From assembly GCA_025056355.1 (NCBI GenBank), contig JANWWI010000001.1, forward strand, positions 62,001 to 126,000: a stretch of DNA of 64,000 nucleotides. The letters run 5' to 3'. This document shows positions 3,249 to 54,373 of this stretch, in pieces. The notes beneath the pieces were generated by a model. The model was not told where the DNA came from, searched no databases, and saw only the letters and a program-made list of their open reading frames with translations. The DNA comes from Casimicrobiaceae bacterium. GTDB lineage: Bacteria > Pseudomonadota > Gammaproteobacteria > Burkholderiales > Casimicrobiaceae. Each line of letters opens with the position of its first letter. The stretch's first letter is position 1. Position numbers and translations under genes: made by a program.

Positions 3249-3282
3249 CAAAAAACAAACAAGGGAGCCTCACGGCTCCCTT
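3249..3282 (-). terminator. Intrinsic terminator of the pilin gene
   Basis: On the minus strand AAGGGAGCC pairs perfectly with GGCTCCCTT (9-bp stem, 4-base loop) and is followed by a T-rich stretch (TTGTTTGTTTTTT, 3249-3260). It starts about 40 bases after the pilin stop codon, as expected for a Rho-independent terminator of a highly expressed gene. Confidence 0.9.
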
Positions 3283-3323
3283 GACCAGCCGTAAGGGCGC
3301 GCTATTGCGCCCTCTGATCTCTC

Positions 3324-3740
3324 TCAGGTCGTCGCCGCCGCTGTGCACGTGTTGGGCAAGTAGCGAGCAGGGCTGCCCGTGCAGGCCCAGGTCACGGTGT
3401 TGGCGCTTGCGTTCCAGGTCGGCGTGAGGGTAATCGTCGTGGGACCCGTCGCTGCGGTCCCTACGATGGTTACGGTACCGTTGTCGGCAAGTGTGGCGCT
3501 CGCGACCAGGCCGCCGGTGCCGGGCGCCTGACAGTTGCCTCTGGCTGCGGCGCCAGCAAGCTGCGAGGCCTCAGTCACGCAAGTGCGAACCGAGCTGGCT
3601 GCAAGCAACAGTTCCGCGACGCGCGCGCGGCGCGTGTAGTCTTGATACGCCGGAATGGCAATGGCCGCCAGAATGCCGATGATCGCCACGACGATCATCA
3701 GTTCGATGAGGGTGAAACCCCGTTGCAATTGACGTTTCAT
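3324..3740 (-). CDS. pilA: Type IV pilin major subunit (PilA-like prepilin)
   Basis: The 138-residue prepilin begins [20 protein letters not shown], the class III signal. A short basic leader is cut by the prepilin peptidase after Gly8, and the new N-terminal residue is Phe, with the conserved Glu at +5. The hydrophobic N-terminal helix then forms the filament core. Two cysteines near the C-terminus (in WACTGS and PNTCTA) could make the disulfide-bonded D-region loop. I chose the ATG at 3740 because AAGGGA lies about six bases upstream and the leader fits; an upstream in-frame start would spoil the signal. It is a single-gene unit with a sigma-54 promoter and a strong terminator. No other pilus genes are in the window, so I cannot rule out a minor pilin role. 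Confidence 0.92.
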
Positions 3741-3804
3741 GATCGTCCCTTTTCCGAAGTCGGTTGAGTTGAAGAACAGCGACAAGCGCTGGACACCCCT
3801 GTCC

Positions 3805-48241: not shown

Positions 48242-49812
48242 GCGGAAACGTCCTGCAAGTGATCGTGCTCGACGCGCTCAAGCGCGGGTGCCCGCGGCGA
48301 CGGCGCGGGGGAGGTGTGCGCAGGCGGCCGAAGTAAGGCGCAGATCTCGGAAGGCCGGCGAGTGCGTGCGCCGATCGGGACCGGTCGCGCGGGGGGTTGG
48401 TCGGGGTTGTTCGCGAAGTGCTTCGGGTCGCGCGGACGATCCTTCGCCTCGGAGGCACCGGCGCGCGTCGCCACATTCCCGCGCTCGGGTCGCTGCGCCA
48501 GATCGGGCAGCGGCACGACCTCGATCGTGCGCTTGATGAGCCGTTCGATCTCTTCGAGTAAGCGCTCTTCCTCCGGCGAAACGAAGGAGATCGCCATCCC
48601 GCTTGCGCCGGCGCGCCCGGTGCGGCCGATACGGTGTACGTAGTCTTCGGCTACGAAGGGGAGCTCGTAGTTGACCACCACAGGCAGCTCTTCGATGTCG
48701 AGCCCGCGCGCGGCGACGTCGGTGGCCACCATGATCGTAGCTGCACCGGACTTGAAGGCTTCAAGGGCTTTCAGGCGCTCTTCTTGGGTTTTATCGCCGT
48801 GCAGCGCCGTGGTTGAAAAGCCCTCGCGCGCCAGTGCCCGGGCAAGCCGCGCCGTTTCCGCTTTGCTTCGGCAGAAGACGAGCACCTGCGTGAGGTTTTC
48901 GCTGCGCACGAGGTGGGCAAGAAGCCGCCGTTTGTCCTCCGCTGCCACCCTGTACAGGCGCTGCGTGACGGTCTCGGCGGCCGTGCTGCGCCGTGCCACC
49001 TCGATGACCGCTGGCGAGCGCAACATGCGGTCGGCCAGCTCGCGGATTTCCTCCGGAAAGGTCGCCGAAAAAAGAAGGCTCTGCCGCTCGCGCGGAAGTA
49101 GCGCGAGGATGCGGTGAATGTCGGGCAGAAAGCCCATGTCGAGCATGCGGTCGGCCTCATCAAGCACAAGCACCTCGACGTAGTTCAAGAACACGTTGCG
49201 CTGCTCGTGATGGTCGAGCAGCCGTCCGGGTGTGGCGACCAGGACCTCCACCCCGGCGCGCACGGCCTTTTCTTGCTCGCGGATATCGACGCCTCCGTAG
49301 ACCACGGTTGAGCGAAGACCGGTGTATTTGCCGTAGGCGGCCACGTTCTGCCCAATCTGGATGGCCAGCTCCCGCGTGGGCGCAAGAATGAGCGCGCGCA
49401 CGGGGTGACGCGCTGGCGAGGGTGAGCTGTTGGCGTACTTTGCCAAGCGCGCAAGGATCGGTAAGGCAAATGCCGCTGTCTTGCCGGTGCCGGTCTGCGC
49501 GCGACCCATGACGTCGCGTCCTTCGAGCACGACCGGAATCGCGCGCGCCTGGATGGGGGTCGGTGTGAGGTAGCCGAGTTCGCGCACGGCACGCAGGATC
49601 GGCTCGGGCAGACCGAGTGCCTCGAAGCCGCTTGCGCAAGAGGTCGGCATCGCCCCAGAGGAGCTTGCTGCCACCGGCTCCGAAGGCTCAGAGGAGGCTC
49701 TCGCGGCCGTACCGTCAATCGGGAGTGTCGCCGCCTCGGACGATTCGGCGAGGGCAAAAGTCGGCGCCTCACCCAGCGCCGGCGAGTGGGGCGAGCGTGT
49801 GAGCTCGGTCAT
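48238..49812 (-). CDS. DEAD-box ATP-dependent RNA helicase (RhlE-like)
   Basis: The 524-residue helicase remodels RNA, often during ribosome assembly or decay. Motifs in order: Q motif near FEALGLPEPILRAVRELGYLTPTPIQ, Walker A AQTGTGKT (about 105-112), DEAD as VLDEAD (about 209), SAT in LLFSATFP (about 242), and the C-terminal HRIGRTGR (about 374-381). The first 60 residues are a low-complexity Ser/Ala/Glu tail. The C-terminus is basic and Pro-rich. I start at 49812 (MTELTRS) because the frame upstream lacks support. It heads the coupled operon with ybaK and GNAT. Confidence 0.88.
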   Translation of the reverse strand: MTELTRSPHSPALGEAPTFALAESSEAATLPIDGTAARASSEPSEPVAASSSGAMPTSCASGFEALGLPEPILRAVRELGYLTPTPIQARAIPVVLEGRDVMGRAQTGTGKTAAFALPILARLAKYANSSPSPARHPVRALILAPTRELAIQIGQNVAAYGKYTGLRSTVVYGGVDIREQEKAVRAGVEVLVATPGRLLDHHEQRNVFLNYVEVLVLDEADRMLDMGFLPDIHRILALLPRERQSLLFSATFPEEIRELADRMLRSPAVIEVARRSTAAETVTQRLYRVAAEDKRRLLAHLVRSENLTQVLVFCRSKAETARLARALAREGFSTTALHGDKTQEERLKALEAFKSGAATIMVATDVAARGLDIEELPVVVNYELPFVAEDYVHRIGRTGRAGASGMAISFVSPEEERLLEEIERLIKRTIEVVPLPDLAQRPERGNVATRAGASEAKDRPRDPKHFANNPDQPPARPVPIGARTRRPSEICALLRPPAHTSPAPSPRAPALERVEHDHLQDVSA

Positions 49813-49854
49813 AACCCGATTGTACGGTGGCGGGGCTGTCGTGGTGGGCGGCCG

Positions 49855-49879
49855 TGCTGATCGGTTCAATCGATCAGCA
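49855..49879. repeat. Perfect 9-bp inverted repeat upstream of rubrerythrin
   Basis: TGCTGATCG (49855-49863) and CGATCAGCA (49871-49879) face each other around a 7-base loop. It sits about 130 bases before the rubrerythrin ATG and 43 bases upstream of the divergent helicase start. It may be an operator or a palindromic RNA element. Its arms share GCTGATCG/CGATCAGC with the hairpin at 59476-59503. Confidence 0.5.
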
Positions 49880-50008
49880 TTGCCAAAAAACTTCAATGCA
49901 AGACGACGGGGCGCGCGCCACAATGCGCGCTGCGAAATCGGTGCGGTCGCGCTTGTTGCCTTCGGCCGACCGTTCGCGTCCTACCCTGTGTTCGATCAAG
50001 GAGTCTCC

Positions 50009-50428
50009 ATGAACCTCAAAGGCACGAAGACGCACGAGAACCTGAAGATGGCCTTCGCCGGCGAGAGCCAGGCGAACCGTCGTTATCTCTACTTCGCCAA
50101 CAAGGCCGACGTCGAAGGGCAAAACGATGTGGCTGCGCTGTTTCGCTCGACTGCCGAGGGAGAGACGGGACACGCGCACGGGCATCTGGACTACCTCGCC
50201 CTCGTCGGCGACCCGGCCACGGATCTGCCGATCGGTTCGACGCGCGACAACCTGAAGGCGGCTGTTGCCGGCGAAACGCACGAGTACACCGACATGTACC
50301 CGGGCATGGCCAAGACCGCGCGCGAGGAAGGCTTTGACGAGATCGCCGACTGGTTCGAGACGCTCGCCAAGGCCGAGCGCTCGCACGCAAACCGCTTCCA
50401 AAAGGCGCTCGAGGCCTTGCAAGACTAA
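50009..50428 (+). CDS. Rubrerythrin (short, without rubredoxin domain)
   Basis: Rubrerythrin reduces hydrogen peroxide through a di-iron site in a four-helix bundle. The 139-residue protein has the helices with [16 protein letters not shown] (Glu18), [11 protein letters not shown] near 53, [14 protein letters not shown] and [11 protein letters not shown] near the C-terminus. The Glu-x-x-His pairs are those of the di-iron site. The C-terminal rubredoxin Cys4 domain is missing, as in many proteobacterial members, so another protein must donate electrons. AAGGAG six bases upstream supports the ATG at 50009. The Fe-S protein that follows is a natural electron donor candidate. Confidence 0.92.
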
Positions 50429-50448
50429 AGCGAAGCCGGCTCAGAGGC

Positions 50449-50512
50449 CCGCTCGCTGCGCGAGCGGACTGGGTCGAATCCACCGTGCCGCGGCACGGTG
50501 GATTGTGCCCAG
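50449..50512. repeat. Hairpin plus large perfect palindrome inside the rubrerythrin cluster
   Basis: CCGCTCGC/GCGAGCGG makes an 8-bp stem with a TGC loop at 50449-50467. Next to it, 50477-50504 is a perfect 28-bp palindrome with arm AATCCACCGTGCCG, flanked by CTGGG (50469) and CCCAG (50508), which extend the stem past one 3-base mismatch. It occupies most of the 102-base space between the rubrerythrin stop and the Fe-S protein start. It has no U-run, so it may slow or process the transcript between the two genes. Confidence 0.85.
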
Positions 50513-50530
50513 GGCTCAGACGCAACTGCC

Positions 50531-51949
50531 ATGACACGAGAAGGAAACCTCGAAGCACCCACCCGCCATCCGATCGACTGGAAAAACCCCGCCTTCTGGG
50601 ACGAAGAGGCGTTGAACCGCGAGCTCGAGCGCGTCTTCGACATCTGCCACGGCTGCCGGCGCTGCGTGAGTTTGTGCAACGCCTTCCCGACGCTCTTCGA
50701 TCTGGTCGATGCCTCAGCAAGCGGTGAAATCGATGGCGTGGCCAAATCGGACTATCGCAAGGTCGTCGATCAGTGTTATTTGTGCGACCTCTGCTACATG
50801 ACCAAATGCCCGTACACGCCACCGCACGAGTGGAACGTGGACTTTCCGCACTTGATGCTGCGCGCCAAGGCGATCAAGTTCAAAAAGGGGGAAGTGGGCC
50901 GTGCCGAGCGCTTTCTGGCCTCAACCGATGTTCACGGCCAGTTTTCGGGCATTCCGATCGTGGTCCAGACGGTCAATGCGGTCAACCGCACGAAGTTTGC
51001 CCGCCGCGCGATGGAGCGCGTGCTCGGGGTCGATGCAAAGGCCTGGTTGCCCGAGTTGGCCACGCGACGGTTTCGCACGCAGGCCCGAAGCGCGCCGCGG
51101 GTCAACGCTCCCGTGCGCGACGGGGAACGCACGCCGGGTAAGGTGGCGATCTTTTCCACGTGCTACGTGAACTACAACGAACCGGGCATCGGCATGGACC
51201 TGCTCGCGGTGCTTGCGCACAACGAAATTCCGTTCGAGATCGTCGAGAAGGAGGCCTGCTGCGGCATGCCCAAGCTGGAGCTCGGCGACTTGGAGGGCGT
51301 GGCCGCCTTGGCGGCCAAAAACCTGCCGGTTTTGGCGCGCTACGCGCGCGAAGGCTTCGCCATCCTCGCGCCGATTCCCTCCTGTTCGCTCATGTTCAAG
51401 CAGGAAATTCCGTTGCTTATGCCGGAGAGCGCCGAGGCCAAGGCAGTCCAAGAGGCGATGTGGGACCCTTTCGAGTATCTCGTTGCACGGTACAAGGATG
51501 GCCTGCTCAAAACCGATTTCACGGTGGCGTTGGGCCGGGTGAGCTACCACGTGCCCTGCCACAGCCGCGTGCAGAACATGGGACGAAAGACCGAAGAGTT
51601 TTTGAAGTTGATTCCTGGCACGACCGTGCACACGGTGGAGCGCTGTTCGGGCCACGCTGGCACCTACGGCGTCAAAAAGCAACACCACGCAACCGCCATG
51701 AAAATTGGTCGGCCGGTCTTTCGCGCGATGGCGCAACCGGGCGGGGCAGCGCCCGACTTTATCGCTTCGGATTGTCAGCTTGCCGGGCACCACATCGAGC
51801 AAGGCATTCGCGAGGGGCAACTTCTCGGCTCCGCCTCAGCTTCGGCCGAGCGTTCCGGCGCAGCCGTCTTGTTGCATCCGATTTCCCTTGTTGCGCGCGC
51901 CTATGGACTGCACGGCACCACAGCTGCGGCGCAAGCCGCGACGGCATGA
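50531..51949 (+). CDS. Fe-S oxidoreductase (GlpC / heterodisulfide-reductase-like) of the rubrerythrin cluster
   Basis: The 472-residue protein has two 4Fe-4S motifs near the N-terminus (CHGCRRCVSLCNAFP and CYLCDLCYMTKCPYTPP) and two CCG-type domains (EKEACCGMP near 238 and RCSGHAGTYG near 381). This is the arrangement of GlpC and heterodisulfide reductase B-like proteins. It should carry electrons, perhaps to the rubrerythrin. The ATG at 50531 is chosen because the homologues start nearby; its ribosome site is weak. It sits between rubrerythrin and a DUF3501 gene, an order I know as a conserved proteobacterial cluster. Confidence 0.85.
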   Translation: MTREGNLEAPTRHPIDWKNPAFWDEEALNRELERVFDICHGCRRCVSLCNAFPTLFDLVDASASGEIDGVAKSDYRKVVDQCYLCDLCYMTKCPYTPPHEWNVDFPHLMLRAKAIKFKKGEVGRAERFLASTDVHGQFSGIPIVVQTVNAVNRTKFARRAMERVLGVDAKAWLPELATRRFRTQARSAPRVNAPVRDGERTPGKVAIFSTCYVNYNEPGIGMDLLAVLAHNEIPFEIVEKEACCGMPKLELGDLEGVAALAAKNLPVLARYAREGFAILAPIPSCSLMFKQEIPLLMPESAEAKAVQEAMWDPFEYLVARYKDGLLKTDFTVALGRVSYHVPCHSRVQNMGRKTEEFLKLIPGTTVHTVERCSGHAGTYGVKKQHHATAMKIGRPVFRAMAQPGGAAPDFIASDCQLAGHHIEQGIREGQLLGSASASAERSGAAVLLHPISLVARAYGLHGTTAAAQAATA

Positions 51950-51985
51950 TTGTTCACGACCGCGTCGTTTTCAAGGAGACCTGTT

Positions 51986-52570
51986 ATGCCCGCGTTGACC
52001 CGCGACGACTTGATGACGCTTGAGGCCTACCACAAGTGGATCAAGCAAAACAAGGCCGCCATGGTCGAGCATCGTAAACGCCGCTCGGTGCAGCTCGGCG
52101 AACACGTGCGCGTGCAATTCGAAGACGCAACGACGATTCGCTACCAGATCCAGGAGATGCTGCGCATCGAAAAGATTTTCGACGAGGAGGGGATCCAGTC
52201 CGAGCTCGATGCCTACAACCCGCTCATCCCGGACGGCACGAATTGGAAAGCGACGATGATGATCGAGTATCCGGACGTCAACGAACGCCGTCGGGCGCTT
52301 GCGCGGCTCATTGGTATCGAGGATCGCATGTTCGTCGAAGTCGAAGGGCACAAGCGTGTCTACGCAATCGCCGACGAAGACCTCGATCGCGAAAATGAAG
52401 AGAAAACCTCTTCGGTGCACTTCCTGCGCTTTGAGTTCACGCCGCAGATGCGCGCCGCGCTGCTCGCCGGGGCGGGGGCCACGCTCGGCTGCGATCATCC
52501 GCACTATCCGATGCATGTGGCGATCCCGCCGGAAACGCTGGCCGAACTGATCAAGGATTTGCGTGCCTGA
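51986..52570 (+). CDS. DUF3501 protein
   Basis: The 194-residue protein begins MPALTRDDLMTLEAYHKWI and contains EDATTIRYQIQEMLRIEKIF near 48-67. A C-terminal CDHPHYPMHVAIP follows, with a Cys and His pair that might bind metal. AAGGAGA supports the ATG. It is the third member of the rubrerythrin/Fe-S/DUF3501 cluster, and the constant company suggests a shared role in peroxide or iron-sulfur stress. The biochemical activity is unknown. Confidence 0.82.
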   Translation: MPALTRDDLMTLEAYHKWIKQNKAAMVEHRKRRSVQLGEHVRVQFEDATTIRYQIQEMLRIEKIFDEEGIQSELDAYNPLIPDGTNWKATMMIEYPDVNERRRALARLIGIEDRMFVEVEGHKRVYAIADEDLDRENEEKTSSVHFLRFEFTPQMRAALLAGAGATLGCDHPHYPMHVAIPPETLAELIKDLRA

Positions 52571-52621
52571 GAAGCGGGCCCTGCGCCGGGCCGTCCGCGC
52601 TCGTGCGCTACGCTCTCGGGC

Positions 52622-54373
52622 ATGATCCGTCACGCCTTACTGCCTCGTAGCGGCGCAGAGCTGCTCGCCGATCAACTGCTCGTGCACGGCGTGGAGATTG
52701 CCTTTGGCGTGCCGGGCGAGAGTTACCTCGCGCTTCTTGATGCGCTTGCCGAGCGCTCTGAGCGCGTGCGCTTCATCGTCTGCCGGCACGAAGGCGGGGC
52801 CGCTTTCATGGCTGAGAGTTATGCCAAGCTCACCGGGCGGCCCGGTGTGTGTTTGGTGACCAGAGGGCCCGGCGCCTGCAATGCAGCCATCGGCGTGCAC
52901 ACGGCCCATCAAGACAGCAGCCCGCTTGTGCTGCTCGTCGGTCAAGTCGGCACCGACCTGCTCGAGCGCGAGGCTTTTCAAGAAATCGACTACCGGCGCA
53001 TGTTCGGGCCGATGGCCAAATGGGTGGCGCAGATCGACCGCGTCGAGCGCGTGCCGGAATTCATCAGTCGCGCTTTTCAGACGGCAACGAGTGGCCGGCC
53101 CGGTCCGGTGGTACTCGCGCTGCCGGAGGACATGCTTGCGGCAAGCGCCGCGGTGCCGGATGCCTTGCCGTACCAGCCGGTTGTGCCCAGGCCAGCGCCC
53201 GAGGCGATTGAGGCCACGCTCAATGCGCTTGCCGCGGCCGAGCGGCCGTTCGTGCTTGTGGGCGGCTTCGGTTGGAGCCGCGAAGCGGCACGGGCGCTGC
53301 GCGAAGTCGCCGAAGCGCTCGAGCTGCCCGTGGGCTGCGCGTTTCGCTTTCAGGACATCTTCGACAACGCGCATCCGAACTACGCGGGCGACGTGGGCCT
53401 GGGCGTCAATCCCGCCCTTGCGGCGCGCATTCGCGAGGCCGACTGGGTGCTCGTGCTCGGGGCGCGGCTCGGCGAGGCCACCACCTCGGGCTACACGCTC
53501 TTTGCCGTGCCGCGGCCTCGGCAACGGCTGATCCACGTGCATCCGGATCCGGAGGAGCTCGGCCGCGTCTACCAGGCCGAACGCTACATCTGCTCGGGGG
53601 TGAGCCCGTTTGCCCTGGCGCTCGCGAGGGCGCTTGCGGCACGACCACGGCGCGTGCGCTCCGAGGGCCGCGAGCAACGCCGCGCCTGGATGCGCGAGCT
53701 TGCAGCCTGGCGTGCTGAACCGCCGATCTACCGCGATCGCGCGGAACCGGCACGACTCAACCTTTGGCAGGTCATGCAAACGATCGAACGCGTGGCGCCG
53801 GCCGATGCGATCCTCACGAACGGCGCGGGCAACTTCGCCACCTGGGCGCATCGGTTTTTCCGCTACCGCGGCATCGAACACTGCGGCAAAAGTCAACTCG
53901 CGCCTTCCTCGGGGGCGATGGGCTACGGATTGCCGGCGGCGTTGATGGCAGCGCTGGTAGCGCCCGAGCGGCTCACGATCCATTTGGCCGGCGACGGCGA
54001 CTTTCTGATGACGGCCCAAGAGCTCGCCACGGCGCAGCACTATGGGGCGGCTTTCGTCTCGCTCGTCTTCAACAACGGCATGTACGGCACGATCCGCATG
54101 CATCAAGAGCGCGCGCATCCGGGCCGCGTCTACGGTACCGCCCTCACCAACCCGGACTTTGCCGCCTTCGCGCAAAGCTTCGGGGTTTGGGGCGCGCGGG
54201 CCACAAGTACCGCTCAGTTTGAGGCCGCGTTCGTCGAGGCGCTGAGCGTGGTGCGCCGCGAGCGTCGCTGCGCTCTGATCGAGCTCGTTGTCGATCCGGA
54301 AGACCTTACGCCGGGGCAATCGCTTTCCGCGATTCGCGCCCAGGCGCTTGCCGAGCGTGGGGAGGCGGCATGA
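52622..54373 (+). CDS. Thiamine pyrophosphate-dependent enzyme (acetolactate-synthase-like)
   Basis: The 583-residue protein has the TPP-enzyme fold. The catalytic Glu57 is in CRHEGGAAF. The central domain follows (about 185-345). The TPP/Mg motif has GDGDF (457-461) followed by about 26 residues to FNNGMYG. Acetolactate synthase, benzoylformate decarboxylase and oxalyl-CoA decarboxylase share this fold, so I cannot name the substrate. No small regulatory subunit is adjacent. The stop overlaps holC by four bases, and it lies 51 bases after the DUF3501 stop. Confidence 0.82.
   Translation: MIRHALLPRSGAELLADQLLVHGVEIAFGVPGESYLALLDALAERSERVRFIVCRHEGGAAFMAESYAKLTGRPGVCLVTRGPGACNAAIGVHTAHQDSSPLVLLVGQVGTDLLEREAFQEIDYRRMFGPMAKWVAQIDRVERVPEFISRAFQTATSGRPGPVVLALPEDMLAASAAVPDALPYQPVVPRPAPEAIEATLNALAAAERPFVLVGGFGWSREAARALREVAEALELPVGCAFRFQDIFDNAHPNYAGDVGLGVNPALAARIREADWVLVLGARLGEATTSGYTLFAVPRPRQRLIHVHPDPEELGRVYQAERYICSGVSPFALALARALAARPRRVRSEGREQRRAWMRELAAWRAEPPIYRDRAEPARLNLWQVMQTIERVAPADAILTNGAGNFATWAHRFFRYRGIEHCGKSQLAPSSGAMGYGLPAALMAALVAPERLTIHLAGDGDFLMTAQELATAQHYGAAFVSLVFNNGMYGTIRMHQERAHPGRVYGTALTNPDFAAFAQSFGVWGARATSTAQFEAAFVEALSVVRRERRCALIELVVDPEDLTPGQSLSAIRAQALAERGEAA

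Follow-up and report, generated by a model that had tools for sequence, protein, structure and literature searches.

The systems closest to the element described here are hairpins in the gaps of operons. The malE-malF intercistronic hairpin is a stable structure after the upstream operon gene that keeps 3' exonucleases off the upstream message, and the puf decay terminator is of a similar kind, a stable hairpin in the gap with the same shielding effect (both in PMC5927463). Of 34 stabilised upstream genes in E. coli, 26 have their end just past a stable hairpin that carries no U-tract (PMC5927463). In clostridial operons, an SRPS stem-loop forms part of the 3' UTR of one selected operon gene and is tied to stoichiometry (PMC8219983); in ABC importer operons, internal intrinsic terminators with long GC-rich stems separate a gene that is needed in excess from its partner (PMC9045158).

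The element analysed here is a 28-bp palindrome between rbr and RFO of the already known rbr-RFO-DUF3501 cluster of oxidative-stress genes, in a stretch of DNA of 64,000 nt (the window, at its full length). Like malE-malF and puf, the locus has a stable stem-loop between co-directional neighbours, the arrangement that marks an intercistronic decay terminator or an SRPS stem-loop, and no U-tract follows the stem in the window, a trait of the E. coli decay hairpins. Unlike malE-malF and puf, the stem here is a unique near-perfect palindrome in rbr-RFO-DUF3501, and its shielding of the message is putative. Its host is a betaproteobacterium and not a Clostridium, and processing and stoichiometry, unlike in the SRPS case, are putative here. 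It shares the long GC-rich stem of the ABC importer terminators and lacks their U-rich tract, although 27 of 100 relatives' gaps have one. REP and other palindromic repeats are also extragenic and lie on the 3' side of a gene, as here; unlike them, this palindrome occupies a single place in its genome. A limited search of the open-licence literature returned no report linking rubrerythrin to an intercistronic stem-loop, and the element is most likely an operon-tuning hairpin of a known kind, at a place where that search found none reported before.

Anatomy of the palindrome and its gene cluster

The palindrome (AATCCACCGTGCCGCGGCACGGTGGATT) is exact over its 28 bp and has zero spacer. A sequence-only reading of this DNA had reported it, together with a second 8-bp hairpin adjoining it, and both descriptions proved accurate (Table 1). 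Around the palindrome runs an imperfect quasi-palindrome of 44 nt, whose 22-nt arms are 86% complementary. RNA folding gave a core pair of this extended stem, hairpin B, a pairing probability of 0.99998. Hairpin A has a competing fold, and its pairing probability was 0.26 for the gap alone and 0.73 in a 201-nt context. The gap between the rbr stop (50428) and the RFO ATG (50531) measures 102 nt; with one further base (50429-50531) its folding energy was -60.1 kcal/mol against a shuffle mean of -44.2 (z -4.2).

No T-run follows hairpin A or hairpin B, and scanning 49500-52700 for terminators gave no terminator-like hit within the gap, which bears out the sequence-only reading in its statement that the missing U-run leaves no classical terminator. 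An intrinsic (Rho-independent) terminator in the window gap was rejected as a candidate, the GC stem not being followed by a U-run. At the Rfam gathering score the window contained one tRNA only, with no match inside the gap, and no sigma-70-like promoter was found on the + strand within the gap. Far from the cluster, at 3260-3283, lies a 10-bp perfect hairpin followed by TTTGTTTTTT on the minus strand, which looks like a classical terminator of the minus-strand ORF 3324-3785.

The product of rbr scored 137.5 bits against NF045767, under that model's cut-off of 200, and a domain profile search found no rubredoxin domain in its 139 aa. The downstream product is related to GlpC, and the GlpC models score it under cut-off; we use the name RFO, given to the Fe-S protein gene of the aerobic-type rubrerythrin cluster (PMC5114695). 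The segment 50513-50531 offers RFO no clear Shine-Dalgarno sequence, whereas rbr and DUF3501 each have AAGGAG. Same-strand order of rbr followed by RFO was found in 108 of 110 loci, and judging from gene order only, rbr, RFO and DUF3501 would share one transcript.

Table 1. Positions of the genes and palindromic features of the cluster, in window coordinates
Feature	Position	Strand	Details
Rubrerythrin gene rbr, 139 aa	50009-50428	+	PF02915, E 1.2e-29; AAGGAG before ATG
Hairpin A	50449-50467	+	8-bp stem CCGCTCGC/GCGAGCGG, 3-nt loop TGC
Hairpin B, extended stem surrounding the palindrome	50469-50512	+	RNA fold -33.9 kcal/mol
Exact 28-bp palindrome at the core of hairpin B	50477-50504		single assembly place at <=3 mismatches
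RFO gene, rubrerythrin-associated Fe-S oxidoreductase, 472 aa	50531-51949	+	PF02754, E 6.3e-14; CCG domain, GlpC-like
DUF3501 gene	51986-52570	+	PF12007, E 6e-76; AAGGAG before ATG

The gap in the nearest genome and in other relatives

The closest genome searched (G009, locus L003) belongs to the same genus; its RFO is 83-85% and its rbr 97% identical to that of the window, and in a crude scan its RFO likewise had no Shine-Dalgarno sequence. Hairpins are present there at both places of hairpins A and B. The counterpart of hairpin A has one C-G pair replaced by T-G. For hairpin B, two 20-nt arms were picked by eye after MAFFT alignment and aligned position by position, without gaps. In this common register of 20 positions the window has 18 paired (one G-U) and G009 has 19. 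Each arm is identical between the two genomes at 14 of 20 positions and differs at 6. Stem pairs 3, 4, 14 and 15 are altered on both sides in G009, and all four pair still, three of them as Watson-Crick pairs and one as G-U. When the window arms were substituted at random, 19 pairs were reached with P about 3e-5; for the changed positions, the overlap between the arms had P 0.037 by itself. Pairing was kept in evolution between the window and G009, a single genome pair, and template switching also fits. The arms are 30 nt apart in G009 and 4 nt apart in the window, so the DNA there forms no tight palindrome, yet the stem persists. This persistence despite the wider spacing speaks for an RNA stem over a DNA operator.

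The letters themselves travel less far. In global alignment of the G009 gap with the window gap, 0 of 300 Markov shuffles reached the score; for 13 other gaps of the genus (G005 included), 23 to 269 of 300 shuffles did, which is no better than chance. A DNA search with nothing but the G009 gap did not recover the window gap at E 0.01. When the end of rbr plus the gap was used as the query over 17 genomes of the genus, 14 of the 16 relatives matched, and 12 of these 14 matches stopped before, at, or no more than 3 nt beyond the end of the rbr coding region. Only two reached further into the gap, G009 by 53 nt and G005 by 37 nt, as far as hairpin A. By these comparisons the stem sequence is not common beyond the closest genome and differs even within the genus.

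To place the gap in a wider set, 110 loci were collected, 30 of them from whole genomes (best matches, window included) and 80 from named contigs (the best 80 of at least 587). This sample is uneven; the named-contig loci carry record titles mostly of Beta- and Gammaproteobacteria and, in a few cases, odd MAG labels. Left out were L110 and L111, where RFO was not found, and L048, L049, L056 and L058, taken as duplicates; L091, L103, L109 and L117 have gaps under 30 nt and were left out of scoring, so that 100 gaps remain, the window's included. Their fold z had a median of -2.7, with 64 below -2, 46 below -3 and 9 above -1, and 83 held a stem of at least 10 pairs. The other 36 do not reach z < -2; L031, for instance, has a gap of 37 nt and no strong fold. 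Most relatives scored thus have structure after rbr, and the window's genus has U-less stems. The gaps were also long (median 110.5 nt, n=100) against a median of 25 nt for the RFO-DUF3501 gaps where these were found; among those of the latter that were scorable, the median z was 0.13, with 8 of 40 below -2. Fixed windows of 110 nt gave z < -2 after the rbr stop in 46 of 100 loci, upstream of rbr in 11 of 100, inside rbr in 9 of 100, inside RFO in 1 of 99 and after DUF3501 in 15 of 92. A Shine-Dalgarno core of 4 or 5 bases preceded RFO in 47 of the 100 gaps and one of 3 bases in 16, and it was absent from 37, a count that is crude because the start codons came from alignment.

Some of these gaps are occupied by repeats. 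Dispersed palindromic repeat families were found in the rbr-RFO gaps of L005, L007/L008, L015 and L022, with tens of matches in some genomes of the genus and in G081. With both strands counted, the G005 gap had 31 matches within G005, the G001 gap 76 within G001 and the G081 gap 81 within G081, whereas the G002 gap had 28 matches in G008 and only 4 in G002 itself. The G001-type repeat has 8 matches in the window's own genome (G000) and 3 in G009. The G005, G002 and G081 types had no match in the window's genome at E 0.001; the G005 and G002 types likewise had none in G009 or in several other members of the genus. For the G009 gap no full second copy was found in G009 or G000, the only hit being a 27-nt match in G000 (E 0.004).

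Alternative explanations for the palindrome

The stem after rbr could halt polymerase part of the time, unaided or together with Rho, and RFO would be transcribed less; in this genus the stem would then be a terminator that lost its U-tract. Such an internal attenuator draws support from the relatives, where U-tailed terminator-like hairpins occurred in 27 of the 100 gaps on the coding strand, in 6 on the other strand and in 2.8 for Markov sequences (a rougher count over the main hairpins put the coding-strand figure at 12 of 100). This coding-strand bias suggests a role read off the transcribed strand. In clostridial operons, gene ratios are also set by internal terminators whose U content is lower and whose GC-rich stems are long (PMC9045158). 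The window gap, however, has no U-run, and 0 of 15 loci in its genus passed the terminator scan. U-less stems are poor terminators by the classical route. We consider an attenuator doubtful at this site.

The palindrome might also be functionless, a mutational by-product of replication, in which template switching perfects inverted repeats; it can make perfect stems and maintain them without selection (PMC8794818). How far the symmetry departs from chance was judged on a 404-kb sample of the own genome, made up of the window and 17 other stretches. The palindrome is the longest with zero loop in the sample (arm 14; next arm 11), and perfect stems of at least 14 bp with loops of 0-8 nt number 3, itself included, against 0.1 in Markov sequences. 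The sequence-only reading had placed such symmetry far beyond chance, and this stands. Perfect stems of at least 10 bp were also more frequent than expected (28 seen, 11.6 expected), and 16 of the 28 fall within ORFs that were called crudely, from ORF length and GC3. Given this general excess, the palindrome is extreme yet not alone, as the by-product explanation would have it. It accounts poorly for the enrichment of structure in the gap across relatives, which the four kinds of control stretch at the same loci show much less, and for the coding-strand bias of the terminator-like forms. We regard it as unlikely. The longest stem of the sample, one of the three of at least 14 bp, lies elsewhere on the contig that holds the palindrome (L132:15136-15184, contig C82) and pairs perfectly over 22 bp around a 5-nt loop.

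Perfect two-fold symmetry of the DNA would also suit a dimeric repressor or activator that binds the 28 bp and gives RFO separate control. The single genome place and the 14 of 20 positions per arm in common with G009 agree with such an operator. The spacing of 30 nt between the G009 arms, where the window has 4, does not, and neither does the lack of a + strand sigma-70-like promoter in the gap. Symmetric sequence conserved at orthologous sites would be expected of an operator; it is partly common to G009 and not to the 13 other genus loci, whose gaps align to the window gap no better than shuffles. By contrast, a separate dyad upstream of rbr is conserved in sequence in 10 of the 15 loci of the genus, as operators usually are. 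The protein operator that the sequence-only reading had offered as one option has accordingly lost ground, and we hold it to be very improbable.

The upstream dyad, TGATCG-N7-CGATCA at window positions 49858-49876, lies some 150 nt ahead of the rbr start. At -121 to -160 it is matched at 10 or more of 12 positions in the 10 genus loci counted above, among them the window, the source of the pattern; over all loci, 12 of 104 upstreams matched, compared with 5 of 520 after base shuffling. It is a candidate rbr operator, perhaps for a LysR-type regulator. An OxyR consensus was matched upstream of rbr at 8 or more of 10 positions in 33 of 104 upstreams, against 8 of 104 shuffled ones and 1 of 104 coding stretches; the window's own rbr upstream matches 8 of the 10 positions.

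Copies in the own genome were sought in the whole assembly (2.62 Mb, 170 contigs; G000). Many unrelated copies would, as the sequence-only reading put it, make the element a dispersed repeat; the 28-mer has one place only in the assembly, and the palindrome is therefore not a dispersed repeat there. Its 14-nt arm, the palindrome itself aside, occurred at 1 place with 1 mismatch and at 33 with 2 mismatches (reversed-pattern control, 13). A family of dispersed palindromes in the own genome was rejected, the 28-mer being unique and the arm search giving no family. Within the 404-kb sample the sole match to the G001-type repeat is in L134, and the window gap has none. That a REP-like repeat copy landed in the gap is barely credible: G005, G002, G001 and G081 do hold members of dispersed palindromic families in the same gap, but the many copies of a REP are missing for the window palindrome, and the G009 gap is without a full second copy in G009 or G000.

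A proposed protective 3'-end hairpin and the biology of the cluster

We favour, with a probability of roughly 0.55, an RNA hairpin that would mark where the rbr message ends on its 3' side and whose main effect would be to block 3'-to-5' decay of that message. The hairpin probably lets the cell retain more rbr than RFO message. This reading builds on the stem, its uniqueness, its pair-preserving retention in the nearest genome searched and the presence of hairpins at this position in the majority of the relatives scored. In the mechanism we infer, rbr, RFO and DUF3501 would be transcribed as one unit, and the palindrome would fold in the RNA into a long stem (hairpin B) directly after rbr, with hairpin A assisting. 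The RFO part of the message would be cut or would decay from its 3' end, and exonucleases would halt at the stem, so that an rbr-only message would outlive the remainder and rbr would stand at the higher level. RFO having no clear Shine-Dalgarno sequence, rubrerythrin would be made in excess over its Fe-S partner. Partial premature termination at the stem may contribute.

An mRNA element that gives the two genes different levels had been the other option of the sequence-only reading. It gains indirect support from the U-less hairpin, the hairpin position common to most relatives scored, the pair-preserving changes in one genome pair, the strand bias of terminator-like forms and the unequal Shine-Dalgarno layout; processing, the route it had named, stays putative.

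More tentatively, the rbr-RFO gap may be a conserved hairpin slot, in which a strong stem after rbr is selected and its sequence is not. Lineages would then keep refilling it with what lies within reach, and the fillers could be U-tailed terminators, dispersed palindromic repeats captured from other places in the genome or, in the present case, a private palindrome that template switching has perfected. If this is true, the gap would clearly exemplify how palindromic repeats are captured repeatedly and put to use in tuning an operon. It would be a regulatory position at which structure is kept while sequence turns over, and in that respect the slot outweighs the exact palindrome in interest. 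If protection of the rbr message by the hairpin is right, the poorly studied aerobic-type rubrerythrin cluster would have a built-in excess of its peroxide scavenger over the Fe-S partner.
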